From: Buxus sempervirens
Lineage: Eukaryota > Streptophyta > Magnoliopsida > Buxales > Buxaceae
Direction of reading: 5' to 3'
Assembly: GCA_947561395.2 (NCBI GenBank)
Contig: OX387182.1
Location: 53,653,283-53,717,282, forward strand
Length of the DNA: 64,000 bases
Positions 1,395 through 60,752 of the stretch are shown piece after piece (the first letter of the stretch is position 1; every line of letters starts with the position of its first letter). A program made the position numbers and the translations under genes. Under the pieces are notes generated by a model. It was not told the DNA's origin. It did not search any database and saw nothing but the letters and a program-made list of their open reading frames with translations.

Positions 1395-1536
1395 GTATCC
1401 GGTTACTCAGGCCGGATACAAGTACTCCTTTGTGTATCCGGTAGGACATACCGGATACATGTGAGCCTTAGTGTATCCGGTACCATGTACCGGATACCTT
1501 AAGGCCCTTTTGTATCCGGTCTGATATACCGGATAC
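1395..1536 (+). promoter_or_regulatory. Palindrome array in U3 of the 5' LTR (4 x 25 bp, 39-bp period)
   Basis: Four copies of GTATCCGG-N9-CCGGATAC start at 1395, 1434, 1473 and 1512, an exact 39-bp register. The ninth arm base is usually complementary too (T with A, or C with G). The LTR TATA box follows at 1692. The 3' LTR repeats the same four units at 25756, 25795, 25834 and 25873. Confidence 0.9.
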
Positions 1537-1691
1537 ATTAAGTTTGCTCAAAATTAGGGTTTTCCGAGAGAAATCACTTGTTACCATCATGTCCCTCATT
1601 TAATGAGGGGAAATCTCGGAAACAACCTTAGGGTTAAGGTTGGTGGGTTCTAGACATTAGGTTGTGTCTACCAATGACCTTAGCCTTTGCC

Positions 1692-1699
1692 TATAAATA
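1692..1699 (+). promoter_or_regulatory. LTR TATA box
   Basis: TATAAATA in the middle of the LTR, conserved in the 3' LTR and in the LTR of element C (reverse strand, 39355-39362). Transcription would start about 30 bp downstream, near 1720. The 61-residue open frame drawn across this site has no ATG and is not a gene. Confidence 0.8.
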
Positions 1700-1794
1700 A
1701 GAGGCTCCTCTTCAAGCAAAGGACCAAGTTTTTGGAGATCGAAGAACTCCGAGTGAAGAAGGGAACCGCTGCCGGATTGCTTCCAGAACCCCAG

Positions 1795-1796
1795 GT
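1795..1796 (+). other. Putative splice donor in the LTR leader
   Basis: CCCCAG|GTAAGC is a near-consensus plant donor about 75 nt after the predicted start site. It is identical in the 3' LTR and in the LTR of element C. Its likely partner is the acceptor at 10341-10342 just before gag. Splicing would remove the PBS and the whole repeat-rich 5' region from the gag-pol message. Confidence 0.6.
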
Positions 1797-3554
1797 AAGC
1801 CTCAACCCTCATTTATTTTCTGTATTTAATTTATTAGATCTAGATCTCTTCTTCTACCTTTCTGTAAAATAAAGCCTCTTTTTGTGTGTGGAAATCCTTC
1901 CCCGGCTCAAAGTATCTCAAGACTCCCCTAACCGTAAAACGTGAAGGCGGGATCTAGGAGAAACGAGATTGGGGATTGACCCTAGTGCTAGAACCCATGT
2001 AGCATAAGGCTTTTGAATGATTGAAAACCGTTCTATAATCAAAGTACCCTTGATTATCTCGAAGAACCGTGTTTAACGGGGAGAGAGAACAGAGGGAAAC
2101 GATAATGGAACGGAACCCTAGGCTATGCTAGAACCTATCTTGTTGAATCTATATGCATGATATGTTGTTGTATTAATCTTGCTTGGTTTTTCACTCTTGC
2201 ACACATATTACACTCTTTTGGTGGAATAGGCTCATATTTGGGGTTTATTGCATCTATTGTGATAAATCTCAAATAAATGACCTCAATCAATTCTGGAAGG
2301 TTTTACAATGATTTTTAAAGGTTTTATATTCATTTTGCACGAATCACACACTTTTTGGCACATTTTGGCATTGGTTTTACTCAAAAAGGGCCTAACTGGA
2401 CAGCACCTGTACCCTTACTTCGGATGCTCATAACTTCATCGTCCGGATGAATTTTGGAGTGATTTCAGAACCATGGGAAAGGTGAGGCTGTCTAGTTTAT
2501 GTCCGTCAAATTTCATAAATTTCCATAGAACGGATTTTTGACACCTCTCTGTCGAAGTTAAGTAGACAGTTCAGGTTCAAATACAGAACTTGTCACTTCG
2601 ACGGAGCGCCATGTGTTCGTTTTAAGTCCGATTCGGGTATTTTTGTTTCTGAGTACTCCTTTATGAGTCTATTTTCAAATCCAGTTGGTTTCATAATTTT
2701 TGGATTCCATTTGAATTATTGGTAGCCGATTTACTCAGAACTGCTCAATGGCATTTTTCTGGGTGAATCTGTGATCTTCGGGGCCTGTTTGGGATATCAC
2801 CCAAGGCACATCCGAAGGGATTTTTGTATGAAGCTAGTTTCTTTTGAAAGATGGCCATACAGACTTCAATCACACCAAATTTCGTGGATTTTTATGGAGT
2901 GGATTTTTCTAGACAATTTTCCAAAGTTGCCCACTCGTCACTTTTAAAAATCCCCAGCAGCAACTTCAAAGGAGCATAACTCCTAGGATTTTAATTGGAA
3001 TGCAGTGAAATTTTGCATAAGACCCTTATTTACTGTAATCTTTCAAATGAATTTAGTTTGGTTTGATCTAAAATTGGATTTGAATGATTTCAAGACAAAT
3101 GGCATTACTTTTCACCGAATTTTCCGGATTTAATTCAACTTGGTTTTTGAGTAACTTGTGCTTTGATTTCCATCTTTTGAGATATTCCAGAAATGATATT
3201 GACATAAGGGAAGATCTAAAATCCATTTGGATCCTCATGTGAAAATATCATACATTGGTCTTTTTTCAAGGTTTTCTATGATTTTAGCAAGCTTTCTATT
3301 TTTGCATGAACATACACTTGGCAACCACTTCGTGTGGATGAATGGGGGTGCCTAACACCTTCCCCCGTTCATAATCTAATCCCCTTACCCATCTCTGGAT
3401 TTTATTTTCAAGTAGGGTTATTTTTACCTTAGAACTCTTTGGTGTCCATTCTCACCCCAAAATCATGAATGGTGGCGACTCTCCCGTTTTTGCGCTGAGC
3501 CCGTGTGTTGACGGAGGGATGATCATTCCAGTGATTTTTTCCATGTCTCACAAC

Positions 3555-5088: not shown

Positions 5089-5230
5089 GTAACCGACAAC
5101 TCAGGCCGGTTAAGAATAACCTTGTGCATATCTGGTATATAATGCCGGATACAAAGGGCTATGCGTGTATCCGGTCATTGTGACCGGATACATTAAGCCA
5201 TACCCTTATCCGGTCATTAATACCGGATAC
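5089..5230 (+). promoter_or_regulatory. Palindrome array inside the 5' region (4 units, 39-bp period)
   Basis: Units start at 5089 (arms changed to GTAACCG/CCGGTTA), 5128, 5167 and 5206, exactly 39 bp apart. The last two keep most of GTATCCGG-N9-CCGGATAC. The matching array of element C is at 60612-60752, also with one AACCGG-type unit at the same end. No TATA box is obvious beside it, unlike the other arrays. Confidence 0.8.
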
Positions 5231-6831: not shown

Positions 6832-7863
6832 TGTGCGCGCGTGGGAAACGCGGCACGGGGTAATTCGGAGTCGCCACCGCCTGATGGGGTGCAGGCGGAG
6901 ACCTGGGTGCCTAAGTTTGTCTATTAGGGCTTTGGTCTGCGGCTTGAGATTCTAAGTCGGTTCTCGGTTGTGGTCGGGGGAAGTCCGTAGACACCCCAGT
7001 CCACCCCGTCGGATGACGGGTCCCGTGGGTTCCCTGATTTGAGTCAGCTTTCTCACTTTTGGTTCTCACCCGATTCCTAATCCAGCATGCATTTTTGTTA
7101 GGTCTTGGTGGGACCACCTGAGTGGTGTGGGTCCCTTTAGTTGATTTTATCTTTGCTTAATTTTTGGTTTCCTGAGTCTGATTGGGTGGGCCCCGTTGGA
7201 AGGCCCACGGTGTTTTTGTTGGGCTTAGGTAAGCCCGTGTGCCCTTAGTGGGCCTCTGTCTAACCCTGGGAGGCCCTGTGGGCTTTGGGTAATGAGTTGG
7301 TTTTAAGGTCCAAGTTTGATTATTAAGTTGCTTTTACGCAAGTGGTGGGCCGGATTGATTTGTGGGCCCCTTAGGTGGGCCCACATGGTGGCCAAGTAAG
7401 CTTAACTCATCTTTATTCAATCTTTGCCAAAGTGGGCTTGGGGCCCATGATCCCGATTTTTGGGCTTTGAAAGCCCAGTTCCTTGGAGTTTAGGGCCTAT
7501 CCCCTAATTCGGTTCGGTAGGTGGGCTTTAGCGGGCCCGTTAGGCCCTGGCCCATGGTCTCGGCCAAACCACACAGTTTATGCATTCATTCACATCCAGG
7601 TGCGGGTGGGCCACATTGGGTTTGGCCCATCCGATTGGTTTGGTTCATTTTGCTTAATCTTGCTTAAGTTGCATGCATTGGGGTTTATTGGGCTTGGTGG
7701 GCCCCGTTGGAAGGCCCACTATTGTGCCAAGTTGGACCGGTTGGTCCAAGTCCCAAGTTGGGTTTTCGGGTGACCCGGAAACCCTATCGGTTCAATTGGT
7801 TTAGCTTAGATCATTCCAAAATGCAGCAAGACAGCAGAATATACAAAAAATACATTTCAGTGT

Positions 7864-8005
7864 GTATCCGGCAACTCAAGCCGGATACACTTGGCCTGCA
7901 GGTGATCCGGCCAGAGTGGCTGGATACACAGGGGCCATAGGTGATCCGGCCTCAGTGGCCGGATACACCTAGGCCATATGTGATCCGGCCTGAGTTGCCG
8001 GATCA
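7864..8005 (-). promoter_or_regulatory. Second palindrome array in the solo LTR (downstream of its TATA)
   Basis: Four 25-bp units start at 7864, 7903, 7942 and 7981, exactly 39 bp apart. Three read TGATCCGG in the left arm instead of GTATCCGG. In LTR orientation this array lies about 1.1 kb downstream of the TATA box, in the transcribed part. Confidence 0.85.
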
Positions 8006-9076
8006 CCCTGGAATGGCCCTTTTTGGTGATTCTGCCATTCGGGGTGGTTTCTAGAGGTTCCCAGGAGGCTTTATGAGCTGTGTGGGCCCCTGGATGGGCC
8101 CACGTTGGTTCAGGCTCAGGGGGGAAGCCTCCTTTTGCTTCTTTTCTTGGTTTCTTGACAAAGGCAAAGGGGTTGGTGGGGACATGGGTTTGATCTTAGG
8201 CCCTTGGGCTACCGGGGCAGCAAGGACTATGGGGAGCTTACCGCTGTCTCCCCCGAGAACTCATCAAAATCGGAGTCAAGGGGTACAGGGCAATGACTCT
8301 TCATATAACATTAATGACAACACAAATGGGGTAGGCTGGCCAATCAAAGGCTTCATGCATGAAGGCGAAATCAAGCGTAAAAAAAAATGAGCACCATGAC
8401 GGCGCCATCGGGATTCCTACGTCATCTCTAGTGAAAACGAAACCTCGTCCTAGCATGCGTAGCAAATGAACCTTAAAGAAGGGAAAGAGGGGGGGTTACA
8501 TAGGGGTACATGGGAAGCAAGTAGGAGGGAACAAACTCCCTTTTGAAACAAGCATGCATACTTTAAAACAGTGGCCGAAAATGGGGCCATAAAACCTCTC
8601 CTCCTCCCTTGGGATCGTGCATGGGGTCTCCCTCATCCTTGGAGACCACCATGCTACCAAGAGGCGGAGAAAAAGCACATGTAAACATCCTTTAAAACAG
8701 ATATGAGCTTGGTAAAGAAGAAAAACACAAAACTAGCATGGAAAACTGTCTCTTTAATATATGTGTAAATAAACGTACCAAGGAGTCTCACCTGATGGTC
8801 CTTGAGTGCCTGGGCAGTGTGGATGCACCTCCTTGCAGCGGGACAGCAGCCGAAAACTTCTTCTCTTTGGGCCAACAGCACTTGCACACCTTCTTCTTGG
8901 GGTATGAGTGAAGATGGGGAAAGAAAAGGAGGGTGGTAGTGGCTTGAGATGGTCAAGGATGGTGGTAGGAGCCTTAAGGAGTAGGAAGGGATGGGATTCG
9001 GAGGGGAGCAAATGGGGAAGGAGAGCTGGGAGACAATCAAAAAACACCAACCCCCGTAAACGAGCTGCTGATTTGC

Positions 9077-9084
9077 TTTTTATA
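9077..9084 (-). promoter_or_regulatory. TATA box of the nested solo LTR
   Basis: TATAAAAA on the reverse strand, 11 bp from the nearest palindrome unit (9096-9120). This is the same close array-to-TATA spacing as at the antisense gene promoters. Confidence 0.75.
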
Positions 9085-9095
9085 GACAATTTAAC

Positions 9096-9327
9096 GTATC
9101 CGGCAACTTAGGCCGGATACACTATAACCACTGTGTATCCGGTCTTTAAGACCGGATACACTAAGTTCCTTTGTATCCGGTCTTGAAGACCGGATACAAA
9201 CAAAATGATTTCAAAAATTAAATGCCGCCGCGAATTTGTCGGGCGATCGGCGCGAATCTCGCGCGCGAATCTGATTGTATCCGGTCATGAAGGGGAGCCA
9301 GTGTATCCGGTATATGGGACCGGATAC
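9096..9327 (-). promoter_or_regulatory. Palindrome array upstream of the solo-LTR TATA box
   Basis: Full GTATCCGG-N9-CCGGATAC units at 9096-9120, 9135-9159, 9173-9197 and 9303-9327, plus a half-decayed unit from 9277. The spacing of the first three is 39 and 38 bp. Sequence between 9198 and 9276 is CG-rich and unrelated. Confidence 0.88.
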
Positions 9328-10031
9328 AAATTGAAAATTTACGGATTTGCCCTTCGACTTGACCGATTCGACCGATTTGACCCTTTTTGATATCTACGGA
9401 TCGGCCGTACGAAATTTTTATATTTAAGATTTAGTCCCTGAGATATTTTGCTGCGTTGGCTGCCACGTGGGCAGTTCTTGCGCCACGTGTGCAGTTTCCG
9501 GCTTTTGCTACCCGGAAACTTCGACAGACCATATCTCCTTCATCCGAACTTCGATTTGAGCAAACTCAATTGTGTTAAACTCGTATCGGAGCCCTCTATT
9601 TAATGACATGGGGCTAAGCACTTGGCACGGATTCCGAGAAAAAGTCAATTTTAGGTTTTCCCTTAAGTTTGACTGCCCTTAGAACCTTCATCCGGACTCT
9701 GATTCCGGCAAACCCAGTTGCGCTGGAACCGTGTCAGGATTCTCTATCCATTGGGCTAAAGTAAGGTATTTGGCACGGAAATCGAGGAAAAGTCAACTCT
9801 TGGCTTTTCCTTAAGTTTGACTGCCCTTAGAACCTTCATCCAGACTCTGATTCCGGCAAACCCAGTTGCGTTGGAACCGTGTCGGGATTCTTTATCCAAT
9901 GGGATAGATTAAGGTGGCCAAATTTTATCCGATTAAAAGGTCAACTTTGCACCCCTCAGGGTTTGACTTTTCGGCCAGGTTTTGCATTTCTGGCCTTTTG
10001 GGAGCGCAAAAAATGAGGTTCTTACAATATC

Positions 10032-10342: not shown

Positions 10343-10393
10343 GTACACTTATTTGCAATCATTGCTCCCGTGACCAGATCCAAAGCCAGAGCT

Positions 10394-13300
10394 ATGAACA
10401 CTGAAGAGAACCAAGCCCAAGCCACCGTACCCGCTCAAGACTTTGCTCAGCTGCAGGAGCAAGTGGCTGGTCTGGCCAAGATGCTGGGAGACCTACTGGT
10501 GGCTCAGGCCCAACAGGCCCAAGCCCAAAACCAAGCATCGACTTCCCATCAAGCACCACCACCTCAGGCCTACATTCCGCCTCCGACTCAACCCATGCCT
10601 GAGCCCATTTCTGAACCAATTCCTGAACCCATTCTGATCAGGGAAAATACAGCAGAATCCGAGAAAGAACTGGAGAAGGAAAAAGCCAGGGAAGAAACTG
10701 AAAGGAAAATGCTGCTCAGGATAGAAAGAATCCAGGAAGAACTGAAAGAGGTGAAAGGGGGAAATAGCTATGGAGGCACCACTTTCGAGGATCTGTGCAT
10801 GTATCCTAACGTATGTCTACCGGCCAAGTTCAAGTGCCCGGACTTCGACAAGTTCGACGGCACAGGCTGCCCTATGAGCCATTTGAAACTATACTGCGGG
10901 GCTTTATGCCAGTTTGGTCGGGATGATGGCATACTGATTCAACTCTTCCAGAGGAGTATGACAGGATCGGCCTTGAGGTGGTTTGCCACAGTTGATCATG
11001 GGAAGATTAGAGGATGGAAGGACCTAGCAGACACCTTCTTAGACCAATACAAATTTAACTCGGAGATCGTGCCAGACCGGTACGACATTATGAGGATGAG
11101 CAAGGGCAAAGATGAATCTGTGCGACAATATGCCAAGAGGTGGAGAGAGGCTACCTCTCAGGTCAGGCCGCCTATGCTGGAACCTGGAATGATCTCAACA
11201 TTCATGGGTACGCTGGGGCAGCCCTTCTACAACCATCTGGTGGGTCAAATCACCACCAACTTTGCAGCTCTGGTACAGGTGGCGGACCGGATCGAGGAAG
11301 GGGTCAGGTCAGGAAGGCTTATTGATTATTCTACTTTGACTGGGCAGTCTGATTCCTCGGCCTCCATGGCCCAGAAGAAGGGAACCGAGTTCAAGAAGAC
11401 AGGGGCCCGAAAAGAAGGAGAGGTGAACCTGGTCCAGGCTCCTCCAGCCAAGAAGCCGCTTCACGTAAATATCTCTGCACCCCAGCAGGCCCAACAGGCC
11501 CAGCAGTCTTATCAGACCCCGCATAATGTCAATTTCTCTCCCTCCGTGCCAACTAACCCAAGGAGGACTTTTTCCAAGGAAGAGAGGGAGGCCTGGTTCG
11601 CAGCAAGAAAGAACCGAGTCTTTACTCCCCTTCCGGTATCTCTTTCCCAATTATTGCTAACCCTGCTGAAAGGGGAATATGTGACCTTGAAGGAACCAAG
11701 CCCGAATGCCACTAAGGGGAGGAATTTTGATCTGGCAGTCACCTGTGACTTCCACATGGGTGCACCGGGGCACTCTACAGATGCTTGTTGGGTGTTGAAG
11801 CACGCGGTCCAGGACTTGTTGGACCAGAAGGCCTTGGTTTTTAACACTGCTGTACCCGCACCATCCGGGAATAATATTTGGCAGAACCCTTTGCCTTACC
11901 ATAATGGGGCAGGCCCATCCAACTCCATCACAGCCATATCCACCACCAGAAGGGCCTTTGACCCATCACAGCTCATAGCTCCAGTAGGGACCACTGTCCA
12001 GGTCCGTTTTTTCCAAGAAGAAGAAGAAGAGGAGATCAACATGGTCTCCCAGAAAAACAATGCAGCTGCTGAGGACATAAGTTCCTCTCTAAACCGGGTC
12101 TCATCTCTTATTGCCCAGATGAATACTGCAAGGCCCCCATTGATCTTCAATTGCAATCCACCCATCTATTCACCATCTAAGCCGTCCAAGGCTCCACTGG
12201 TCATCAACCTTGACCCCACCACTGCTTCCATCACTTCTTCTATCCCCACAAATTCCAAACTTCAACCCTTGGTTGTAAATGTTCAGCCAGCCCACACTAT
12301 CCCTAAACCGGCCCATACATCCCGGTCCAAACTCCAGCCACTAGTGGTTAACATCCCTAAATTAGCCTATTCAGAGGCCGCTGTACCATGGAATTACAGC
12401 GAGGGAATCACGGCTACGGTTCCAGTGGTCAAGGACCAGAACCAGGAGGAGGTGAACCTCATGACGATGTCAGGGAGATGCGCAGGGGGTGAAGAGAAGG
12501 AGAAGGAGACAGAAGCAGAAAAAGAAAAAATAGAAAAAGAAAATGAAAAAAGAAAACAAAAAGGAAAAAATAAAGTGGGAGAAGACACCCCCCAGGGTGT
12601 AGAAAATGAGGCAGCAGACCTCATTAAAATAATTAAGAAAAGTGAATTCAATCTTGTGGACCAGCTGAACAAGGTCCCAGCCCAGATTTCAATACTGGGC
12701 CTTTTGCTGAATTCGGAAAATCACAGGGATGCATTGTTAAGGATGCTACAGAGTGCACATGTATCCCAGACCATTGATCCAGACCAGCTTGGTAAAATGG
12801 TTGGTCAAATCTTGTCACATAATGTGATAAGTTTCTCAGAGGGTGAGATCAGCCCAGGTGGGTGCTATCATGTTGACCCTTTGCACATCACAGTGCTTTG
12901 TAAGGGCTGCATGATTGCACGGGTACTAATTGACAACGGGTCGGCGTTAAACGTTTGCCCGTTAATCACTTTTACCAAGCTGGGTCTGGACCAGTCAAGG
13001 ATCAAACAAAATGGGCGGATAGTGAGGGCTTTCGATAGCTCCAAGACCCACTCCCTAGGGGAGATTGAACTGCCGGTCACAATTGGGCCGAATATCTTCA
13101 ACATCACGTTTGAGGTGATGGATATACCCGCAGCCTTCAATCTGCTCCTAGGAAGGCCGTGGATACACTCGGCTAAGGCAATACCATCCACGCTCCACCA
13201 AAGGGTGAAATATGTAAGAGGGCAAAGGGTGATAACAGTCCTAGCCGAAAACTTGGTGCCGCCTATTGTGTCACTTGATGTACCCTTAATCAATGTGGAC

Positions 13301-14119
13301 TTGACTGTTGACAAGATTGCATTCCACTCATTTCAATTTGAGGCGGTCAATTACATACCTGGGGGGTGTGAGAAAAAGAAGGAAAAGGGGACCACTGCAG
13401 AAAAAATGGTCAAGAAAGTGATGGAGAAATACCACTTTCACCCGGGGAAAGGCTTGGGGATCAATCTGCAGGGGATGGTGGAGCCAATCACGGCTAAGAA
13501 ATTGATCCCCAAGGTAGGGTTGGGCTTCAAGCCCAGAGGCTGGAGAAGAATGAAACATGAAGAAGGAGAGAGCAGAAGCAAAGGAAAACTCCAGCATCTG
13601 AGGGTGAACTTTCCAAAACCCTCCTATATAATCCAAATTTCTCCTCCCATGGACCAGTCCAAGCCTCCATACCACAACCTCAACCCATTTCAAAAGCCTT
13701 TTGTTTCGGCTCTACAACCCTATAACCCATCTCCAATACTGGGAGCAGAAGATGGGCCTAGGCCACAGCCCGAGCAGCAGGTGGACTTTTCTGAAGATGT
13801 TGGTGCATTCTTCGCCATGACTGAAGGCGAAAAGACAGGAGCAGACATGGAACTGCCGTTTATTGACTGGGCCGCAGTAAAGATGCCGGAGGAGGTCGTT
13901 TCTGGATTGGGCCCTGTAGCAGAAAAGGGCAGTACCCACCCGGTGATGATGGCATCGGATTATGGGTTTGAAGGGCGGGATTTCCCTATTTCCCCTACTC
14001 CCCAAAATTTTGTAATGAACAATTGGGAGGAAACTCCCCTTACCTTTGAAGCAGCGTTTGTTCGGCAAACTAACGCGGCTTCCAAAAAAAACTCCAATAG
14101 TGGAATGCCATTTCCCTGA
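10394..14119 (+). CDS. gag-pro: Gag-protease polyprotein of element A
   Basis: Forms the virus-like particle and carries the protease. The ATG at 10394 (MNTEENQAQ) is the first in frame and is shared with element C. A Q/A-rich coiled N-terminus comes first, then a Retrotrans_gag core at about residues 135-320, then a Tat-type knuckle (Cx2H then GHx4C, about residue 450). After a long P/S/T-rich linker and a K/E-rich charged stretch (about 700-735) comes an aspartic protease with the active-site motif IDNGSALNV near residue 847, where DTG/DSG is usual. A G-patch-like segment follows (about 1010-1045, GKGLGINLQGM ... GLGFKP), known from Ogre-type elements. The frame ends at a TGA also present in element C. 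Pol is in the +1 frame and overlaps the last 104 nt. This is the most intact sense ORF in the window. Confidence 0.92.
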   Translation: MNTEENQAQATVPAQDFAQLQEQVAGLAKMLGDLLVAQAQQAQAQNQASTSHQAPPPQAYIPPPTQPMPEPISEPIPEPILIRENTAESEKELEKEKAREETERKMLLRIERIQEELKEVKGGNSYGGTTFEDLCMYPNVCLPAKFKCPDFDKFDGTGCPMSHLKLYCGALCQFGRDDGILIQLFQRSMTGSALRWFATVDHGKIRGWKDLADTFLDQYKFNSEIVPDRYDIMRMSKGKDESVRQYAKRWREATSQVRPPMLEPGMISTFMGTLGQPFYNHLVGQITTNFAALVQVADRIEEGVRSGRLIDYSTLTGQSDSSASMAQKKGTEFKKTGARKEGEVNLVQAPPAKKPLHVNISAPQQAQQAQQSYQTPHNVNFSPSVPTNPRRTFSKEEREAWFAARKNRVFTPLPVSLSQLLLTLLKGEYVTLKEPSPNATKGRNFDLAVTCDFHMGAPGHSTDACWVLKHAVQDLLDQKALVFNTAVPAPSGNNIWQNPLPYHNGAGPSNSITAISTTRRAFDPSQLIAPVGTTVQVRFFQEEEEEEINMVSQKNNAAAEDISSSLNRVSSLIAQMNTARPPLIFNCNPPIYSPSKPSKAPLVINLDPTTASITSSIPTNSKLQPLVVNVQPAHTIPKPAHTSRSKLQPLVVNIPKLAYSEAAVPWNYSEGITATVPVVKDQNQEEVNLMTMSGRCAGGEEKEKETEAEKEKIEKENEKRKQKGKNKVGEDTPQGVENEAADLIKIIKKSEFNLVDQLNKVPAQISILGLLLNSENHRDALLRMLQSAHVSQTIDPDQLGKMVGQILSHNVISFSEGEISPGGCYHVDPLHITVLCKGCMIARVLIDNGSALNVCPLITFTKLGLDQSRIKQNGRIVRAFDSSKTHSLGEIELPVTIGPNIFNITFEVMDIPAAFNLLLGRPWIHSAKAIPSTLHQRVKYVRGQRVITVLAENLVPPIVSLDVPLINVDLTVDKIAFHSFQFEAVNYIPGGCEKKKEKGTTAEKMVKKVMEKYHFHPGKGLGINLQGMVEPITAKKLIPKVGLGFKPRGWRRMKHEEGESRSKGKLQHLRVNFPKPSYIIQISPPMDQSKPPYHNLNPFQKPFVSALQPYNPSPILGAEDGPRPQPEQQVDFSEDVGAFFAMTEGEKTGADMELPFIDWAAVKMPEEVVSGLGPVAEKGSTHPVMMASDYGFEGRDFPISPTPQNFVMNNWEETPLTFEAAFVRQTNAASKKNSNSGMPFP

Positions 14120-17100
14120 AGGTTATAATGGGCGTTCGTCTTCAGGGGGATTATGTTTAGAAGGCTCACAAAAAACCCAAAAAGATTTTTCTATTTTTTC
14201 TAGAAAATTTAAATTTTTCAAAAAGGTCCAAACCACTTATGAACCATATAATCAGACCGAATTGGACCAGGTTGAATATGACTTCGACTTCGAGCTCGAC
14301 TTTGACCTTATGGGGATTGAAGAAGAGATCGAGGTCGAAGAAGAAGACGTTCCAAAAGAAATTGAATACCAATTGGAACGTCATGAAAAGGGGGTCCAAC
14401 CTAATATTGAGGAGACCATATCCATAAACCTTGGGACCGAAGATGACCCCAAAATTGTGAAAATCGGGTCATGCTTGTCTGATGTGCAGAAAAATGAAAT
14501 GTCACAGTTCTTGGCAGACTACAAAGATGTGTTCGCTTAGTCATATCGGGACATGCCGGGGTTGGACACGGACATGGTGGTGCATAAGTTGCCAATTTTA
14601 CCAGGGGTTAAGCCGATTAAGCAGAAGCTGAGAAAATTGAAACCTGAATGGACTCTGAAGGTCAAGGACGAAGTGGTCAAACAGTTCCAAGCTGGATTTT
14701 TGGCAGTCTCTACGTACCCTGAATGGCTCGCAAACATAGTGCCGGTACCAAAGAAGGACGGGAAAGTCCAAATGTGCGTGGATTATAGAGACTTAAATAG
14801 GGCAAGCCCAAAGGACGATTTTCCGCTTCCACACATTGACATTCTGGTCGATAATACTGCGGTACATAGCCTGTTTTCCTTCATGGATGGTTTCTCGGGG
14901 TACAATCAGATCAAGATGGCTAAGGAGGATCAAGAGAAAACAGTATTTATCACACCTTGGGGCACATTCCACTATACAGTCATGCCGTTTGGGCATAAAA
15001 ACACTGGGGCAACATACCAGCGGGCCATGACTGCACTATTTCATGACATGATCCATAAGGAGATGAAGGTCTACGTGGACGATATGATTGCCAAATCATG
15101 CAAAGAGGAGGACCACTTGATCAACCTGAAGAAAGTGTTTGATCGGCTCAGGAAGTATAGTCTACGGCTTAACCCGGCTAAGTGCGTCTTTGGGGCTACG
15201 TAAGGGAAGTTACTGGGGTTTATAGTGAGCCGAAGAGGAATTGAAATTGACCCGGCTAAAGCCAAGGCCATAATTGAAATGCCAGCACCCAGAACCGAGA
15301 AGGAGGTCAGGGGCTTTCTTGGAAGAATTCAGTACATAAGCCGGTTCATAGCGCAGCTCACTGCTATCTGTGAACCGATTTTCAAGCTTCTAAGGAAGAA
15401 TAACCCGACGGTCTGGAATGAGGACTGCCAGCAGGCATTTGACACAATAAAGAGGTATTTGCTGAACCCACCTGTACTAGCGCCACCAACTCCAGGAAGA
15501 CCACTGATCCTGTACTTGTCAGTGTTGGAAACGTCGATGGGATGTGTCTTGGGGCAACATGATGAGACTGGTAGAAAAGAAAGGGCAATTTACTATCTGA
15601 GTAAAAAATTCACGGAATATGAAGCCAAATACTCACCATTGGAAAAGACTTGCTGTGCTCTAGTGTGGGCCACTCAGAGGCTAAGGCATTATTTCCTTAG
15701 TCACTCCACACTATTGATATCCCGGATGGACCCGCTGAAGTATTTATTTGAGAAACCGGCACTGACTGGCAGGACGGCAAAGTGGCAACTGCTACTGTCC
15801 GAGTTTGACCTCACATACATCACTCAAAAGGTGATCAAGGGTCAAGCCATAGCTGATCACCTGGCTGCACATCCTTTGCCAGAATATCAACCCTTGCAGA
15901 CCAACTTTCCCGATGAGGCAATTCTGTACACTGAAGAGGAGGAGAGTGAGAGTTCTTGGCAGATGTTCTTTGATGGGGCCGCCAATATGAATGGGAACGG
16001 AATAGGGGCAGTCTTGGTTAAACCAGATGGTTCACACATCCCGATTGCAGTAAAGTTGAGATTCCAGTGCACCAATAACATAGCAGAATATGAAGCATGC
16101 ATAATCGGATTGCAAGCAGCCATGGATCATGGAGTAGAGGAACTTGACGTATACGGGGATTCGAGTCTTATCATCTTCCAAACAACTGGTGAATGGAAAA
16201 CCAAGGATCACAAATTGATCCCCTATCACCAGTACTTGGAAGAAATAAGCACAAATTTCACTCGAATTTCCTTCAACTATATGCCAAGGGCCAAGAATCA
16301 GTTTGCGGATGCTCTAGCAACCTTGGCTTCAATGGTCAGCATACCAGAAGGAGTAGACATCAGACCGCTGGAAATTGAGGTTAGAGATGAACCGGCTTAC
16401 TGTCTCGTTCTAGAGGGAGCACCAGAAGAATAAGCTCCGTGGTTTCAAGATATCAAAAATTTCTTGAACAATCGGAGTCTGCCAGAGAATGCCACTGCTA
16501 CTGAGAAGAGGACAATACAGAGGTTGGCGGGTCAGTTTCTGCTAAGTGGTGGACATGTGTACAAGAGGTCACATAACGACATTCTGCTAAGATGTGTAGC
16601 CAAGGCTAAATCGGAAAGGTTGATCGAGACGGTACATGGAGGAGTCTGTGGGCCCCATATGAGTGGACACATGTTGGCAAAGAAGATCCTGAGGCTGGGA
16701 TATTACTGGACGACCATGGAGCATGATTGCTGTATACATGTGAGGAGGTGCCACCAATGTCAGATATATGCAGATAATAAGCATGCACCGCCAGGTGAGC
16801 TGCACAACATGACATCACCCTGGCCCTTCTCTATGTGGGGCATAGATGTCATCGGCATGATCTCCCCTAAGGCATCGAACGGGAACAGATTCATCTTGGT
16901 GGCAATTGATTATTTCACTAAATGGGTGGAAGCAGTATCATATGCAAATATCACAAGCAACCATGTTATGAAAATTTTGAAGCACAATATCATTTGTCGC
17001 TATGGACTGCCAAGTGCCATAGTATCAGACAATGCTTCAAATATTAAGAAGAAGGACATGAAGAAAATGTGTGAGCAGTTTCAGATCACCCATCATAAGT

Positions 17101-17687
17101 CAGCTCCGTACAGGCCAAAGATGAATGGGGCAGTGGAAGCAGCAAACAAGAACATAAAGAAAATCATTCAGAAGATGGTAGTGAGCTACAAGGATTGGCA
17201 TGAAATGCTGCCACTTGCTCTACATGCCTACAGAACCTCGATCCGGACTTCAACTGGGGCAACCCCGTACTGCCTAGTCTATGGGATGGAAGCAGTCTTG
17301 CCCGTGGAAGTGGAGATCCCATCACTCCGAGTGCTCATGGAAGCAGAACTAGAAGAAGCCGAATGGGTCCAGTCGAGACATGATCAACTTAACCTGATAG
17401 AAGAAAAGCGGTTGAAAGCGCTTTGCCATGGACAGTTGTACCAGAAGAGAATGGCCCGGGCTTACAATAAGAAAGTGAGGCCCAGAACTTTCCAAGAAGG
17501 AAACCTGGTGCTAAAGAAAATTCTACCATTTTTGGAAGATCCTCGTGGTAAGTTCAAGCCCAATTGGGAAGGCCCATATGTCGTCAAGAAAGTCATATCA
17601 GGGGGAGCACTCATCTTAGCAGAAATGGATGGGTCAGATTTTCCTGAGCCCATTAACTCTGATGCGGTAAAAAGGTATTTCCCTTGA
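14046..17687 (+). pseudogene. pol: Pol of element A: RT, two RNase H domains, integrase (three nonsense codons)
   Basis: One reading frame interrupted by stops at 14538, 15201 and 16431; element C has sense codons at all three. The frame is open from 14016. The N-terminus is acidic, then reverse transcriptase with YVDD at 15072-15083. A gypsy-type RNase H follows (about 15500-15860), then a second RNase H (about 15960-16350, FFDGAANMNGNG ... YGDSSLII) of the extra kind found in Tat elements. Integrase follows: HHCC zinc finger at about 16630-16770, catalytic D (16845), D (17028) and E (17136) with D-35-E spacing, then a GPY-type C-terminus (WEGPYVV). All catalytic residues I checked are present, so damage is by stops rather than motif loss. 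The usual MPFGLKNAGATYQ box reads MPFGHKNTGATYQ here. Confidence 0.92.
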
Positions 17688-20458: not shown

Positions 20459-20600
20459 GTATCCGGTAACTCAGACCGGATACAAAAGGCTTTATTAATA
20501 TCCGGTTAAGTATACCGGATACAAATTAGGCCATGAGTATCCGGTATAACATACCGGATACAAAGACCAATCAATGTATCCGGTATATCAGACCGGATAC
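20459..20600 (-). promoter_or_regulatory. Palindrome array upstream of aORF2 (element A)
   Basis: Four 25-bp units start at 20459, 20498, 20537 and 20576, exactly 39 bp apart, and keep GTATCCGG-N9-CCGGATAC almost perfectly. The array lies between aORF2 and the 3' end of aORF1 (20801). Confidence 0.9.
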
Positions 20601-25664: not shown

Positions 25665-25665
25665 T

Positions 25666-39660: not shown

Positions 39661-39751
39661 AGGTAAAAAACTCATTTTCTCCAATTTTTGTGCTGGCTTT
39701 AAAGGAGATGATGATTTTTGATGATTGTTTGTGAAATTTGGGGTGTCTACA

Positions 39752-40357: not shown

Positions 40358-40421
40358 GTATCCGGCATGTTTAGCCGGATACGAATAAGTCTGTTTGTAT
40401 CCAGCCTGAGTTGCCAGATAC
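40358..40421 (+). promoter_or_regulatory. Palindrome pair upstream of aORF1 (element C)
   Basis: Units at 40358-40382 and 40397-40421, 39 bp apart; the second has point changes (GTATCCAG / CCAGATAC) that are themselves nearly symmetric. The TATA-like TTTTATTAAG at about 40427 is weaker than in A. Confidence 0.85.
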
Positions 40422-40435
40422 ACAGCCTTTTATTA

Positions 40436-41854: not shown

Positions 41855-44525
41855 ATGGCTAGGAGTCGCTCTCGTATCCGAGAGGAGGTTGATCCAGCTG
41901 ATCGGCCCTCTTCATCTCGAGCTAGGATCGAGACGAGTTCTAGTGCTACTCTTTCAGAGCCTTTAGATGATCTCAGAGAGAGCTCTGTTGAGGGTTCTGC
42001 TGAGGTTGGTTTCCCAATTCTTTCCCTTTTTTTTTTTTTTATTCTCCTCCTACACCAATCTTCACACCTTTCTCTTGGAATTTAGCCCGTGTTTGCACCG
42101 GCTCGAGGTTGAGGCAGAGGCCGAGGCAGAGTTCAAGATCAGGCCCCTGAGGGCGAGGGAGGCCGTGGCAGAGGCCGAGGCAGAGCCAGAGGTGCAGTTC
42201 AGGATGGTGTTGCCATGGCTCTGTTAGGGGTCTCTAAGGAGCTGAGGGCATCTATGCATGATACAGAGCTTCTCAGTGGCTTGGATAGCCACCCCTCCAT
42301 GTGCATTAGGGCCGATGTGCCCCTTCCTTATCATTCCTCCCATCTACGAGGCAGTTGGGGCAGATTCAGCGAGTTGGCATAGTCTCTCTCTCCGGCACTC
42401 AGACGCTAGTTCGGGAGTTGCCACCTGGATCACTTTATCAGTATTCCTTCCTTTAGAGCTGATCGTCCACTTATATTCACCATGATGGAGAGATATTTCC
42501 CGGAGACCCAGTCATTCCATTTACCGGACGTGGAGCTAGGGATCCGCCCCTCAGATTTCGTGATGATCACCGGCATTCCTTTGACGGGGCGGACCATCGT
42601 CTTGGATCGGCATTCTGCAGAGGATGTGGGCCTCCTCCTTGGATATCAGGATCTGCCCCATGCTGCTTGGGATGGGCGGAGTGGCCGCCTCTCTATTAGC
42701 TGGTTGAGGGAGAGCTTAGCTCATCATTTTGAGGGGAGGCACGAGACTTTTGCTGTGGAGGATGCCGCTTTTGTCCCTATCTTCCGCCATGTATTCCTGC
42801 TGATGCTTGGGAGCTGCTTCTTCCCGGAGGATACTACTAGTGTCAGCCCACTCTTCTTGGATGCCTTGAGGGATTTCCGCCAGACCCGTCAGCTAGCATG
42901 GGGTCGACTCATTTATGGGACCATTCTGGCCAGGTTGTGCCTAGTGGTTCGAGGCCTGGCATCCCCGAGAGGTGATGGAGTCAGCTGCCGGTTTTTCTGG
43001 CAGATTTTACAGGTATTGGATTTATCTGTCTGATTTAATTCTTCAGGTTTTATCCCTTTTTATTTCTACCTGATTTTCCTTTTTCCAGGTGTTTATGTAC
43101 ACCTACATGACCTTCTTCCGGCCCTCCCCGGTTCCTGAGGTCGCGGATTTCCCCATGGCTTTGCGGTAGTCGGCCCAGGTTCGAGATGCTGATAGGAGCC
43201 AGCCTCGTACTGCCTGGGTGCACTTAGACCGTGCTCACCGATCTGATGTAAATCTTCTACTCCTTTTCCTTTTACTTTTCTTCCTGCCTCTTGACTGTAT
43301 CTGACCACTTTTCTTCTTTGCAGCTCATTCTATCCCGTCTTGATGACGTGGATGTTGGAGTTGCCTGTGAGATGGCAGTACAGGATGCCTTTGAGAGAGG
43401 TCTCCGACGTCAGCCCTACCAGTGCTTCCTTGGGATGCTTGGTAGGGTGATGTACTTGGGAGAGCGCCTGTACTTCCAGCACACAGGCACACTTCGCATC
43501 CCCGTTCCTCCTCCTCCTGTGGGTCCCGACACACTCCTTCCGGGCTTTGACGTGGATCAGCTCGATCACTTCATGGATGCGGAGGGGCTCACAGTAGATG
43601 GGGATTACGACGAGTGGATCCAGAGAGTCTCCATCGGATGCTTGATGGATCGACCCACTCGTGCCGGGGTGACTGAGATAGGTGAGATCTGTATCCGGAT
43701 CCACGAGGATACGGTGAGTCTTGTGATACTCCTGTTTTTATCCGCTTTTCTGCCTTTATGCATTTCTGACCCCACTTCTGTCCTTGTTGGCAGGTACACG
43801 AGCTGAACATCATCCGGGACCGGTTCGAGAGCCAGCAGGCCGCGATCGATGATATGATCGCTGAGCACGACGCGGTCATGGCCCAGAGGGATGCCCGGAT
43901 CAGGGAGCTGGAGGCATTAGTTGCGGAGCTCCAGGCTAGACAGGTATCTGGTCTTCTCATATTTTCATTTCTCTCATTTCCCTGCTTCTGTTATTCTGAT
44001 ATAGCTTTTTGACTTGTGCAGGGCCCTGTCCATGAGCATGACTTCTTTGTTCCTGATCCATCCCCAGCTCGGGCTGCTGATCCCGAGGATGCCCCAGTGG
44101 CTGGTCTTGATGAGCCGGATCCTCCTATTCCTACTGCAGACATTCCGGTATGCTCTCTTTTAATTTTCCTCTTTGGTTCTTCCTTATATCTTGATATTCT
44201 GATTTTTTCTGTGGACCCAGCTACTTCTGCTCCTGGTCCCTCTGCTGCTGTTGCTAGGCCTTCTGTTGCTGCGGGAGCAGAGCCTGCTATGGATGAGGGC
44301 CCAGTTGGGCCTGTTGCTGCTGAGCCAGAGGCTTCTTCCGATTCTGCTCCTGCTCCGCCCCCAGACCTCGAGGAGTATTGTTTGGAGTATCAACTTCAGT
44401 AGGTGGTGGGTCGGTATCCTCGCCATGCAGCCGAGCGTATTCTTGCCTACTCTAGGGGCCGATCGCTTTGGGGGAGAGGCCATAGAGGTGGACGCGGCCG
44501 AGGACGCGGGGATGATCCTGCATAG
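41855..44525 (+). pseudogene. Antisense gene aORF1 of element C: RG-rich / plant mobile domain protein, decayed
   Basis: Same gene as 20801-23704, on the opposite strand to C gag-pol. Exons: 41855-42004, 42086-43012, 43089-43247, 43324-43713, 43794-43943, 44022-44147 and 44221-44525. Exons 2 to 5 are 927, 159, 390 and 150 nt, exactly as in A. One of the three A/P-rich 3' exons of A is missing here. Stops include 42110-42112 (CGA to TGA), two more near 42380-42415, one in exon 3 near 43170, and 44400-44402 near the end, after which an RG-rich tail still follows. The site of the A nonsense codon at 22199 is still CAG here, so the lesions are independent. Confidence 0.82.
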
Positions 44526-44740: not shown

Positions 44741-44882
44741 GTATCCGGCAAATCAGGCCGGATTTATTGAGTTTTCTTTGTATCCGGCATAATATGCCGG
44801 ATACGCTAAAACCTCTTTGTATCCGGCATTCTTTGCCGGATATGAATGGAAAGCTTTGTATCCAACCTGATATGCCGGATAC
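44741..44882 (+). promoter_or_regulatory. Palindrome array upstream of aORF2 (element C)
   Basis: Four units start at 44741, 44780, 44819 and 44858, exactly 39 bp apart, with some decay in unit 1 and unit 4. Confidence 0.9.
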
Positions 44883-44901: not shown

Positions 44902-45010
44902 GCAACCAGCATCGGGATTTGCACTTTTTTACGAGTTTTTGAGTTTAGAAAACCCCTTTTTCTCCTTTTTATTCCTCCTATTGAGTTCTAGCTTGCTCCC
45001 ATAAACTCCA

Positions 45011-46170
45011 ATGGAATCCGGGTCATCTTCTGCCCCATTATTGTCTGTCCACACTGCCTTCCCTGCAAAACAACCTTTTAGATCAAAACCCCCAAATCTT
45101 ACTAGGTATAAACCCGTGGATTCTTTTTACACAAAATGGGTTAACTCTATGACCCTAGATGAGGAGAGGAGATGGGATTCTACAAATCTAGGCCACACCC
45201 TGCTTATTCCCAAGGTTCCCTTCAAGTGGGAGATCATAGAGGCCATGATTGGTCATTGGGTTCCCGACCTCAACTTGTTCCGTTTTGGGGACCATGAGAT
45301 GACCCCGACCATTGTGGAGGTGGAAACCATCCTGGGCCTGAGGTTTGATGAGAAGGTGGTGAATCCACCTCTTAGGCCCAGTTACAAGAAGGAAGCTTCT
45401 ACATTTTTGGGCATAGGAAAGAAGGACTTAGGGGATTCTGACACCCTATTGACCCTATCTAAGGCTTTTTTGGCTGAGAGGCTTTTAAGAGGGGAGAATA
45501 AGGAGGCCCGATTCAATGCCTTGACCCTGATAGTGGTCAACCTGTTGCTTTTCCCACGGGATGATGATGAGGTGGACTTGGCCTTGATTTCAGTGATATG
45601 CCAGGTTAGGGAGAGGGAGAGGTTGGCCCCTATGGTTTTGGCTGGGATGTATCAGGCCTTGACTGATTGATATAATAGGAAGTCGAAACGCTTCCTAGCA
45701 TGTGCTCCGATCTTGCAGGTAAAAAGATTTTTTTTTCTTTTTTGCTTTCTTTTTTGCTTTTTGGCTTTCTTTTTGCCTTTTTTGCTTTTTTCTTGCTTTT
45801 TTGCTTTTTTCTTGCTTTTTTGCTTTTTTTCTTTTTACAATGTGCTGATATATCTCTCTTCCTTTGCAGCTTTGGCTACTTGATCATCTGAGTCAGATTA
45901 AAGAAATCAATCGACACTTCTTCCCGAGCTTGAAAGTCCCTATCTTGATGAGCAACCGGGGATGTCCAGATATTCCAGGGGGCAAACAGGATACGGCAGA
46001 AGTACCAGGATACTTTGGCCAGCCTTAGGAATATGCGGATCAGGCAGGCTCTTTCAGATGAGGTCATTTCCTTCTTGAATGATCCCGCTACAGAGGGGGC
46101 TTCAGGAGTTATTGCAGCTCAGGCAGCTCGGATTCGGGAGCTTGAGGAGCGGCTAGGAGACAGAGACTAG
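45011..46170 (+). pseudogene. Antisense gene aORF2 of element C: DUF7745-like, truncated by internal deletion
   Basis: Exon 1 is 45011-45718 (708 nt, the same length as in A) and is open up to a TGA at 45668-45670 near its end; it starts MESGSSSAPLL. The donor CTTGCAG|GTAAAAAG, a pyrimidine-rich intron (45719-45869) and acceptor TTTGCAG follow. Exon 2 is 45870-46170, only 301 nt against 885 in A. A net 584 bp is missing at about 45990, which removes the middle of the protein and shifts the frame. The C-terminal coiled-coil tail is still readable. The first exon here shows the N-terminus without the nonsense codon seen in A. Confidence 0.82.
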
Positions 46171-58400: not shown

Positions 58401-58680
58401 GGATTAAACCTAATTCACCCTTCACCCTCGGAATCCCCTTTCTACCCCTCATTAGTGTAGGGCTTTCCCGGATTTTAACTGTTGACCAATTTCTATTTAT
58501 TTCCGGTCCGAATAAGACTTTCATATTTATATTTCCACCTCATTTTCTTTAACACTAATGACTACAAATTTCTAGCAATAATGAATTTGATTTAACCTGT
58601 ACATAAATCCATATGTGCATATATTTTTATTTTATCTACTGTTATTATTTTTTTTTTCTACTCAAAACTTGGGTTTTATA
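55413..58680 (-). mobile_element. Large solo LTR (Tekay/chromovirus-like) nested in element C
   Basis: 3268 bp. On the reverse strand it begins TATAAAACCC (the first G probably mutated to A) and ends CGGGGCGTTACA, with a 5-bp target duplication. A reverse-strand TATA (CTATAAATAGG) lies near 58391-58400 and is followed by a leader with AGGGTTTCGCTGGG. The TGTAAAACCC...GGCGTTACA ends resemble Tekay-type chromovirus LTRs; that family call is tentative. No internal coding region. Inside are diverged direct repeats with CCTACTCAGGGTTTC (55970-56100 and 56290-56430) and GC-rich tandem repeats (57480-57800). Confidence 0.78.
57480..57800 (-). repeat. GC-rich tandem repeats, 22-bp core
   Basis: From about 57690 the unit GGGCGCGAGCTGAGCGCCAAGT-type (22 bp) is repeated about five times, each with a GGCGC/GCGCC inverted repeat. 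Two longer related blocks lie at 57480-57680. Arg/Ala/Ser-rich frames across it are artefacts. Confidence 0.85.
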
Positions 58681-58799
58681 ATTTAACTTGAGTCACACCC
58701 CTATACATGTAAACCAGTAGGTTAGGTGAACACCAATCTAGATCTTCTTTTTTGTTTTTGGTTTTTTTTGTTGTTGTTTTTTTAATTTTTTATTTTTGT

Positions 58800-60330
58800 G
58801 TTGGAATATTCTAGGGCTTCCAGAGGTCCCACTTTTTTTGTACTTGATTGGTAAAAAGGAGACCAACCAAGGGTTTTGATGGAATATTTTAGGGCTTCCA
58901 AAGGTCCCATTTTTTTTTTTTTAACTTGATTGGTAAAAAGGAGACCAACAAGGGTTCATGGAATATTTTAGGGCTTCCAGAGGTCCCACTTTTTTTGTAC
59001 TTGATTGGTAAAAAAGAGACCAACCAAGGGTTTTGATGGAATATTTTAGGGCTTCCAAAGGTCCCATTTTTTTTTATTTGATTGGTAAAAAGGAGACCAA
59101 CCAAGGGTTCATGGAATATTTTAGGGCTTCCAGAGGTCCCACTTTTTTTTTACTTGATTGGTAAAAAGGAGACCAAACAAGGGTTTTGATGGAATATTTT
59201 AGGGCTTCCAAAGGTCCAATTTTTTGATTTGATTGGTAAAAAGGAGACCAACCAAGGGTTCATGGAATATTTTAGGCCTTCCAGAGATCCCACTTTTTTT
59301 TATACTTGATTGGTAAAAAGGAGACCAACCAAGGGTTTTGATGGAATATTTTAGGGATTCCAAAGGTCCCATTTTTTTGATTTGATTGGTAAAAAGGAGA
59401 CCAACCAAGGGTTCATGGAATATTTTAGGGCTTCCAGAGGTCCCACTTTTTTTGTACTTGATTGGTAAAAAGGAGACCAACCAAGGGTTTTGATGGAATA
59501 TTTTAGGGCTTCCAAATGTCACATTTTTTGATTCGATTGGTAAAAAGGAGACCAACCAAGGGTTCATGGAATATTTTAGGGCTTCCAGAGGTCCCACTTT
59601 TTTGGACTTGATTGGTAAAAAAGAGACCAACCAAGGGTCTTGACGGAATATTTTAGGGCTTCCAAAGGTCCCATTTTTTTGATTTGATTGGTAAAAAGGA
59701 GACCAACCAAGGGTTCATGGAATATTTTAGGGCTTCCAGAGGTCCCACTTTTTTTGTACTTGATTGGTAAAAAGAAGACCAACCAATGGTTTCGATGGAA
59801 TATTTTAGGGCTTCCAAAGGTCCCATTTTTTGATTTGATTGGTAAAAAGGAGACCAACCAAGGGTTCATGGAATATTTTAGGGCTTCTAGAGGTCCCACT
59901 TTTTTTGTACTTGATTGGTAAAAAGGAGACCAACCAAGGGTTTTGATGGAATATTTTAAGGCTTCCAAAGGTCCCATTTTTGTGACTTGATTGGTAAAAA
60001 GGAGACCAACCAAGGGTTTTGATGGAATATTTTAGGGCTTCCAAAGGTCCCATTTTTTTTATTTGATTGGTAAAAAGGAGACCAACCAAGGGTTCATGGA
60101 ATATTTTAGGGCTTCCAAGGGTCCCACTTTTTTTGTATTTGATTGGTAAAAAGGAGACCAACTAAGGGTTCATGGAATATTTTAGGGCTTCCAGAGGTCC
60201 CACTTTTTTTTGGACTTGATTGGTAAAAAGGAGACCAACCAAGGGTTTTGATGGAATATTTTAGGGCTTCCAAAGGTCCCATTTTTTTATTTGATTGGTA
60301 AAAAGGAGACCAACCAAAGGTTTTATTTTT
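58800..60330 (-). repeat. Tandem repeat array in the 5' region of element C, dimeric higher-order pattern
   Basis: About twenty monomers of roughly 75 bp, the same family as 5527-6120. Two monomer types mostly alternate: one with GGGTTTTGATGGAATATT and CCAAAGGTCCCAT, the other with GGGTTCATGGAATATT and CCAGAGGTCCCAC. This gives a dimer period of about 152 bp. Two adjacent same-type pairs occur near the right end (about 60000 and 60160). Open frames of up to 145 codons across it are repeat translations. Confidence 0.9.
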
Positions 60331-60611
60331 GAAATTTGCTGAATTTTCCATTTTCAATTTCTAAAGCTTGATTGACACATGTTTGAATTGAATTGATATA
60401 AAAAAATATGACACCTTAGCTTGTTCTTTGAGTTTCAACCTTAGGTTTAATCCTAAAAGAATATACATATTTTTTAATATTTTGTTTATATATATATATT
60501 TTTTGAAACATTTTATATTTTCTTTGGGGTGCCTAAGGATTATCTACAGTGTTTAGGCATTTTTATTCTGGAAATTCGGGCTGAAAAAGCCAATTTATTC
60601 AGTTTCTGCAT

Positions 60612-60752
60612 GTATCCGGTATTAATGGCCGGATAAGGTATGTCTTAATGTATCCGGCAATAATGACCGGATACACGCATAACCCTCAGTATCTGGTATT
60701 ATATACCGGATATGAACAGATTTCTTCTTAACCGGCCTGAGTTGCCGGTTAT
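60612..60752 (-). promoter_or_regulatory. Palindrome array inside the 5' region of element C
   Basis: Units start at 60612, 60650, 60689 and 60728 (spacing 38, 39, 39). The last has AACCGG/CCGGTT arms like the corresponding unit at 5089 in element A. Confidence 0.85.

Follow-up and report, generated by a model that had tools for sequence, protein, structure and literature searches.

The question raised by a 64,000-nucleotide stretch of the Buxus sempervirens genome (contig OX387182.1, positions 53,653,283 to 53,717,282; hereafter the window) is why a 25-bp palindrome recurs there in short, evenly spaced arrays, both in the long terminal repeats (LTRs) of large retrotransposons and in front of open reading frames (ORFs) that run antisense to them. 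The palindrome has the form GTATCCGG-N9-CCGGATAC, and we read it as a 9+7+9 dyad with a variable ninth arm base. The explanation we prefer is that the arrays are operators bound by a dimer, likeliest a plant mobile domain (PMD)/DUF7745 protein encoded by the elements themselves, and that they would jointly set the sense and antisense promoters; we give this reading a probability of about one half.

The palindrome arrays are real and far from what chance would produce. The window holds 22 exact sites and a shuffled window none (100 shuffles), and with up to three mismatches there are 39 sites against 0.04 expected. In total there are 11 arrays with 40 copies, and an array is present at each of the 11 starts given in the initial annotation of this DNA; three of the copies (5089, 7981 and 60728) carry four arm mismatches and were included because they are on register. 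The motif is however inexact at the first copies at 5089, 25026, 25756, 44741 and 60612 (4, 1, 2, 2 and 1 arm mismatches, respectively), where that annotation had it as stated above. Its spacing of 39 bp, rarely 38, stands: 26 of the 29 intervals within arrays are 39 bp and two are 38 bp, the exception being one of 130 bp (9173 to 9303), inside which a half-site lies off register at 9277. Genome-wide, the 676.5-Mb assembly contains 20,444 exact sites and not a single match to a reversed-pattern control. Pairs of arms around a centre of 0-30 nt number 20,703, with 98.7% at exactly 9 nt (backward control 2), and facing arms are exactly 14 nt apart in 11,447 cases (control 0) out of 13,009 at 0-30 nt (control 2), so that there are peaks both for the 39-bp step and for the 9-nt centre. 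Other facing-arm spacers, among the matches listed, were 13 nt, or were 27-nt matches due to overlapping GTATCCGGATAC. Chance and an assembly artefact are both ruled out by the shuffles, the mismatch expectation and the genome count against the reversed control. Elsewhere, the pattern is found in eight single sites in viral contigs and in at least 119 stretches of prokaryote genomes (a by-hand estimate with uniform bases gives about 60), and of the 80 prokaryote matches listed, only L017 has more than one site (two, 50 bp apart). In the open-access literature no title or abstract start among the matches listed names this motif, and when its 8-mers were searched there as text, none of the matches listed was on plant retrotransposons by title.

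Judged by their domains and their antisense PMD ORFs, the carriers are Ty3/gypsy elements of the Tat/Ogre type. Two large ones lie in the window in opposite orientation, E1 on the plus and E2 on the minus strand (Table 1). The gag-pol region carries gag (PF03732), RVT_1, RT_RNaseH, RVT_3 (PF13456) and rve, and the dual RNase H is what we take to be a mark of the Tat lineage. Two antisense ORFs are found between pol and the 3' LTR, aORF1 next to pol and then aORF2. PF10536 matches aORF2 with E 2e-13 in E1 and 3e-14 in E2, and PF24924 matches aORF1 with E 1e-12 and 1e-13, PMD scoring there 34.1 and 35.3 bits (cut-off 34.9). In both elements aORF1 is damaged, by an early stop in E1 and by an internal deletion in the last exon in E2. 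A solo LTR of a second family matches the main LTR only at the array (thresholds E 1e-10 and 100 bp).

To this we added 18 fetched stretches of 10 kb, 15 picked for hits and three others, one each from C3, C4 and C6, in which there are none. The 18 stretches gave 32 arrays and three single coding-region copies, with intervals of 39 bp in 80 of 84 cases and 38 bp in four, and ten further arrays were taken from listings (28 of 30 intervals at 39 bp). A copy with 4-5 mismatches was accepted only if it stood 38-40 bp from its neighbour, whereas up to three mismatches were allowed at any distance. The 42 fetched arrays, a sample picked for hits and not at random, all lie within the first 8 Mb of a single contig; every one of them is in the U3 of an LTR, in the leader, in the aORF1 or aORF2 promoter, or in the U3 of the second LTR family. 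Typing by flanks in the window and the 18 stretches gave four copies in U3 (18/18), leader (8/8) and aORF1 promoter (7/7), and two in the aORF2 promoter (8/8). The ten further arrays were seven from U3, one each from aORF1 and the leader, and one from the U3 of the second family; among the seven, one has three copies and one a 46-bp interval, and the second-family array (stretch L160) has five copies at intervals of 39, 104, 39 and 39 bp with a TATA box at 12 bp. Pooled, there are four copies in 24 of 25 U3 arrays (three in the remaining one), in 9/9 leader and 8/8 aORF1 arrays, and two in 8/8 aORF2 arrays. In the initial annotation the labels of the two antisense promoters had been swapped, since it is aORF1, the ORF next to pol, that has four and aORF2 two. 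Five single coding-region copies are excluded from these counts. The ones in the window, at 18775 and 45989 (three mismatches each), belong to the 39 sites mentioned above; they lie inside the last exon of aORF1, are not arrays, and were set aside as coding coincidence; flank typing had assigned 45989 to aORF2, and it was left out of the aORF2 counts. Comparable copies occur in three fetched elements, and there is one more single copy with three mismatches in stretch L160.

The antisense promoters sampled have their TATA boxes at a nearly fixed distance. The aORF1 arrays have TATAAAT 12 bp off on the antisense strand in 7/7 cases and a TATA-like box at 12 bp in the eighth, and the U3 of the second LTR family has a TATA box at 11-12 bp (2/2), while the chance of TATAA within any one 11-bp range of offsets on a single side is 0.012. 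At the aORF2 arrays TATAAG is found at 9 bp in four of eight, with TATTAAG (one) or ACTTAAG (three) at the same spot, and the main-family U3 has its TATA box about 155 bp downstream of the array. These distances were examined in the sampled arrays. The suggested TATA box within 6-12 bp thus applies to aORF1 and the second LTR family, and to only half of the aORF2 promoters. To say that the palindrome marks every promoter was an overstatement, because three window arrays, in leader or LTR body, have no TATA box nearby, the nearest TATA-like sequences being TATAATC 67 bp from 5089, TATAAAA 94 bp off at 60612 and TATATTC 20 bp off at 7864. With TATA boxes on one side and ORFs behind them, the regions next to the other arrays are candidate promoters. 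The gene23 of maize Grande, with its own antisense promoter, is a precedent (PMC7264820; here and below, statements on cited papers refer to the excerpts available to us). Just after the aORF2 TATA-like box there is also a dyad-like GTCGCGCGCGACCGCGACTT block (25020-24985 on the minus strand, and 40430-40455), which is kept with minor changes in 8/8 sampled aORF2 promoters.

Within the 39-bp unit the arms are held and the spacers move faster than the neighbouring DNA. Between E1 and E2 the arms differ at 12/224 positions and the flanks at 240/2241 (p = 0.01), as compared with 26/98 in the centres, 55/139 in the spacers and 19/28 at positions 9/17, and there is one indel in the arrays against 16 in the flanks. 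CpG is retained in 23/28 cases in the arms and 33/55 in the flanks (p = 0.05). A set of 40 distinct arrays (one of 41 was dropped as a near-duplicate) gives the same order, the pairwise divergence being 3-6% for the arms, 9-26% for the flanks, 19-24% for the centres, 19-36% for the spacers and 22-40% for positions 9/17. The spacers exceed the flanks at all four places in both comparisons; the centres do so at three places (not aORF2) in the 40-array set, and only at U3 and aORF1 between E1 and E2. The claim of the initial annotation that arms are held while centres and spacers vary is in this sense confirmed. Two of the outcomes that would have refuted that annotation, spacers as well conserved as the arms and a lack of a 39-bp peak, were looked for and did not occur. 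Arm variants can be symmetric, as in the last copy of the array at 7864 (Table 1) and in the outer leader copies, where both arms are altered at base 4.

The arrays could in principle be a passive tandem repeat, a 39-bp unit once amplified, with register and arms as relics or kept alike by homogenisation. The spacer middle has, by eye, a loose A-GGCC-like sequence, and ACTCAG occupies the centre of the copy that comes first in element sense in 30/41 arrays, whichever way transcription runs, so that the arrays probably go back to a single ancestor whose orientation in the element has been retained. Descent is however not enough, as a passive unit would not keep its arms alone while the spacers outpace the flanks at all four places, nor have a copy number fixed by place, and we consider this explanation very improbable. 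It is also unlikely, if less so, that the arrays are silencing targets, their CCGG-rich palindromes being recognised by the methylation machinery or by a repressor of the host. CCGG is present in the arms and can be methylated in both CG and CHG context. Tandem repeats can be targets of RNA-directed DNA methylation (PMC10398659). If so, losing the sites would benefit the element, yet arms and copy number are kept while the spacers change fast.

The ninth base bears on the nature of the binder. Of 104 distinct 25-mers whose arms have one mismatch at most, 69 match at positions 9 and 17, where 46.7 are expected from independent halves and none of 5000 shuffles reaches as many, and within homologous slots 104/152 match against 86.1 expected; related copies are not independent, so these figures are not true probabilities. 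Co-variation of this base, suggested from the window at the outset, is therefore seen in the larger sample but does not reach significance in the window alone, where shuffling within arrays gives p = 0.09 (37 rows, one of which, 9264, is misaligned). The preferred half-site also differs between the elements, with T..A in 10/14 copies of E1 and C..G in 9/14 of E2 (E1 3' LTR left out), and the T..A type at position 9 makes up 5,920 of the 20,444 exact sites of the genome. Both sides have changed together between E1 and E2 in the four aORF1 copies, in both aORF2 copies (one from an unmatched A..A) and in one U3 copy. A family-wise shift of the preferred half-site could explain the base-9 pattern as well as base pairing does.

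Base pairing is what would be expected if the palindromes were hairpins in RNA or in single-stranded cDNA, serving packaging, dimerisation or priming. The pairing at 9/17 is kept while it changes, all arrays lie within the would-be sense genomic RNA, and the U3 array RNA folds very stably (-90.7 kcal/mol, z = -11.8), but the fold says little because any perfect palindrome folds stably. There is no clear pairing excess at positions 10-12 (36, 50 and 29 of 104 against 40.5, 44.9 and 27.6 expected). Nor is there a sense-strand G-U bias in the unpaired arm cells at positions 2-9 of 133 distinct 25-mers, with 29 G-U against 25 A-C, or 22 against 21 counted once per slot, so that RNA pairing gains no support; position 9 alone leans towards G-U (13 against 7, p = 0.26), and the window alone has 9 G-U against 4 A-C at positions 2-9 (misaligned row excluded). 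At arm position 1, A is opposite C in 19 distinct 25-mers and a G-T pair is found in one (element sense), an imbalance that makes the outer edge of the dyad asymmetric. A search of RNA families gave none at gathering score. Hairpins would moreover leave the fixed TATA distances upstream of the antisense genes unexplained, and we regard them as a poor candidate, somewhat poorer than silencing targets.

The most rational explanation, in our opinion, is that Tat/Ogre-type Ty3 retrotransposons carry in these palindromes a cis-regulatory operator that works as double-stranded DNA. Each 9+7+9 dyad would be occupied by a dimer of a nuclear protein that recognises its sequence. On the 39-bp register 22 bp, or 2.1 helical turns, separate the facing arms of one dyad and the next, so that neighbouring dimers could touch and bind cooperatively. 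The array would then set three promoters jointly, that of the LTR in sense and those of aORF1 and aORF2 in antisense. Binding, dimer, cooperativity and promoter function we infer, and the interpretation in the initial annotation, of a dimeric factor co-regulating sense and antisense transcription, is to that extent partly supported. Which protein binds, and whether it activates or represses, is a guess on our part. The likeliest binder would be one of the two element-encoded antisense PMD/DUF7745 proteins, perhaps in a positive or anti-silencing loop like that of VANC on the tandem motifs of VANDAL. We lean to an element-encoded protein for three reasons: the arrays mark transcription units of the element itself, the half-site type differs between E1 and E2, and VANC is a worked example of such logic. 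The aORF proteins have been kept by purifying selection, as dN/dS between E1 and E2 is low, 0.10 for aORF1 exon 1 and 0.09 for aORF2 (one element pair; 193 and 207 codons), compared with 0.11 for pol and 0.13 for gag. The TRP28 aORF proteins of Retand have been predicted to bind DNA (PMC11963269).

The same operator could instead be read by a recruited transcription factor of the host, the aORF proteins acting in some other way. The motif is common to two LTR families whose LTRs match only at the array (thresholds as above), as it would be with a factor open to any element; the TATCC/GGATA cores resemble the binding sites of plant 1R-MYB proteins. Tnt1 BII boxes bind defence-induced host factors (PMC3316501). 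On the other hand, all 32 arrays in the 18 fetched stretches were typed to these elements, although such a sample would miss rare host sites, and the half-site difference between E1 and E2 is easier to understand with a binder that evolves alongside the element. A recruited host factor is to us a possible but doubtful solution.

Several observations weigh against the operator bound by an element protein. PMD is to our knowledge not an established DNA-binding domain, the predicted structures of both aORF proteins reach only pLDDT 38 and 41, and no solved relative was found by sequence. Other PMD ORFs have an array beside them in 0/10 stretches (one single match with four mismatches), so PMD as such does not imply the motif. 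The leader arrays (5089, 60612) and the 7864 array are without a close TATA box; the centres evolve more slowly than the flanks at aORF2 in the 40-array set, and at leader and aORF2 between E1 and E2; and the changes at 9/17 are one-sided in all three changed leader copies and in two of three in U3. Lastly, the arms in the E1 3' LTR (25756) have decayed, and part of the arm conservation may thus reflect the youth of the copies. A protein search with aORF1 gave nothing at E <= 0.001 among 452 candidates.

The genome search for PMD, with 8,447 first-look candidates of which 117 were scored, gave several matches in tandem pairs at a distance of about 3.4 kb. In stretch L156 (C8:40187300-40189799) a further family of PMD ORFs has upstream of it, at 560-1120, a tandem repeat of about 87 bp, the unit of which contains an ATCCG-N18-CGGAT dyad. 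In L153, L155, L157 and L158 a 44-bp imperfect dyad, TACTTACTCATCACACCG-N8-CGG...AAGTAAGTA, lies about 0.45 kb upstream of other PMD matches. Other PMD elements may, to judge from these repeats, have dyads of their own.

Among known systems, the VANC proteins and VANDAL transposons (MULE) of Arabidopsis are similar in that a short tandem motif lies in non-coding parts of the transposon, is recognised by a protein which the transposon encodes, and occurs in C-type and T-type variants (PMC5735166, PMC10398659). The repeats diverge fast between related elements while the motif is kept (PMC5735166), which compares with the kept arms here, the fast spacers at all four places, and centres that are fast at three (40 arrays) or two (E1 and E2). 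VANDAL is on the other hand a DNA transposon, its motif is the 9-mer YAGTATTAY, and the excerpts describe no fixed 39-bp register or 25-bp dyad; VANC binding has been demonstrated, whereas binding to the present arrays is proposed. Because their carrier is an LTR retrotransposon, the arrays are not a member of the VANC system and work like it at most, and we see them as a variant on the tandem regulatory motifs of transposable elements. In tobacco Tnt1 the BII boxes are likewise several U3 cis-elements that bind nuclear factors (PMC3316501), and the U3 array has in common with them a repeated element upstream of the LTR TATA box. Those factors are host defence-induced, and the parts of that paper available do not describe the boxes as being shared by antisense promoters inside the element. 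The 21-bp repeats of BLV and HTLV are three U3 enhancers with a CRE core that respond to the virus-encoded transactivator Tax (PMC7601775), and HTLV has an antisense promoter in its 3' LTR (PMC7264820), but the sequence is unrelated, Tax works via host CREB/ATF, and the element group is another (PMC7601775).

Ogre and Retand also have antisense ORFs between pol and 3' LTR, and a regulatory role has been proposed for the TRP28 ORF (PMC6317226, PMC11963269, PMC7264820); PMD is present in 57% of Ogre elements (PMC6317226). A palindromic array common to LTR and aORF promoters is not described in the excerpts of these three papers, in which 'palindrom' occurs twice in PMC11963269, one of them in a reference title, and not at all in PMC7264820 and PMC6317226. 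In the present elements a fixed-register dyad is common to the LTR (sense) and aORF (antisense) promoter regions and to a second LTR family. The host PMD proteins MAIN and MAIL1 act in silencing of transposable elements and in gene expression, and a 'DOWN' motif is enriched in the promoters that depend on them (PMC7156037). Direct binding is not reported for them in the excerpts of that paper.

The features of the window are collected in Table 1. The pol of E2 has in addition a tandem duplication of about 944 bp (46953-48836, 92.7% identical), and both leaders contain 76-bp tandem arrays, at 5539-6101 in E1 (7.4 copies) and 58802-60322 in E2 (20 copies).

Table 1. Positions of the elements, antisense genes and palindrome arrays in the window.
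Feature	Position	Strand	Remarks
E1 5' LTR	1305..3552	+	TG...CA ends read; self-BLAST 96.4% to 25664-27944
E1 target duplication	1300-1304 and 27947-27951		GGCGT, 5 bp
U3 array, E1 5' LTR	1395..1536		4 perfect copies on the 39-bp register; TATA at 1692, about 155 bp on
Leader array, E1	5089..5230		4 copies, the first altered at base 4 of both arms; no TATA nearby
Solo LTR, second family	6832..10026	-	nested in E1 leader; 5-bp duplication ATATC on both sides
Solo-LTR body array	7864..8005		4 copies; the last is TGATCCGG..CCGGATCA
Solo-LTR U3 array	9096..9327		3 copies spaced 39/38 bp, then the 9277 half-site and a fourth copy at 9303
Solo-LTR TATA	9084-9078	-	11 bp from U3 array
E1 gag-pol, several frames	10343..17687	+	gag, G-patch, RT, RNase H, second RNase H domain RVT_3, integrase
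E1 aORF1 exons	18618..20266	-	DUF7745, weakly PMD; antisense to gag-pol; stop near frame start
E1 aORF1 promoter array	20459..20600		4 copies; TATAAAT 12 bp off, 20446-20440 (-)
E1 aORF2 main exon	22507..23484	-	plant mobile domain PF10536
E1 aORF2 promoter array	25026..25089		2 copies; TATAAG 9 bp off, minus strand
E1 3' LTR	25666..27946	+	self-BLAST, ends read
U3 array, E1 3' LTR	25756..25897		4 copies; 3 arm mutations relative to the perfect 5' LTR copy
E2 3' LTR	37439..39751	-	self-BLAST, ends read
E2 U3 array	39519..39660		4 perfect copies
E2 aORF2 promoter array	40358..40421		2 copies
E2 aORF2 main exon	42410..43033	+	PMD
E2 aORF1 promoter array	44741..44882		4 copies; TATAAAT 12 bp off, 44895-44901
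E2 aORF1 first exon	45005..45670	+	DUF7745/PMD; last exon with internal deletion
E2 leader array	60612..60752		4 copies (38, 39, 39 bp); the outermost is TTAACCGG..CCGGTTAT
E2 5' LTR start	62278..64000	-	97.5% to 37439-39163; window ends before its U3 array

It is a tentative thought that these elements run a regulon of their own, in which dimers of the antisense PMD proteins, placed on phased palindromes at the LTR as well as in front of the genes that encode them, would be one switch that activates or de-silences both strands, with base 9 diverging so that each family answers to its own protein. The arrays bear on the role of the antisense ORFs, and of their PMD, in the giant retrotransposons of plants. 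With 20,444 exact copies, a fixed geometry and nearly fixed TATA distances at the sampled antisense promoters, they are a defined bait for a possible self-encoded regulator, and a simple cis signature by which Ogre-type elements and their antisense genes can be annotated.

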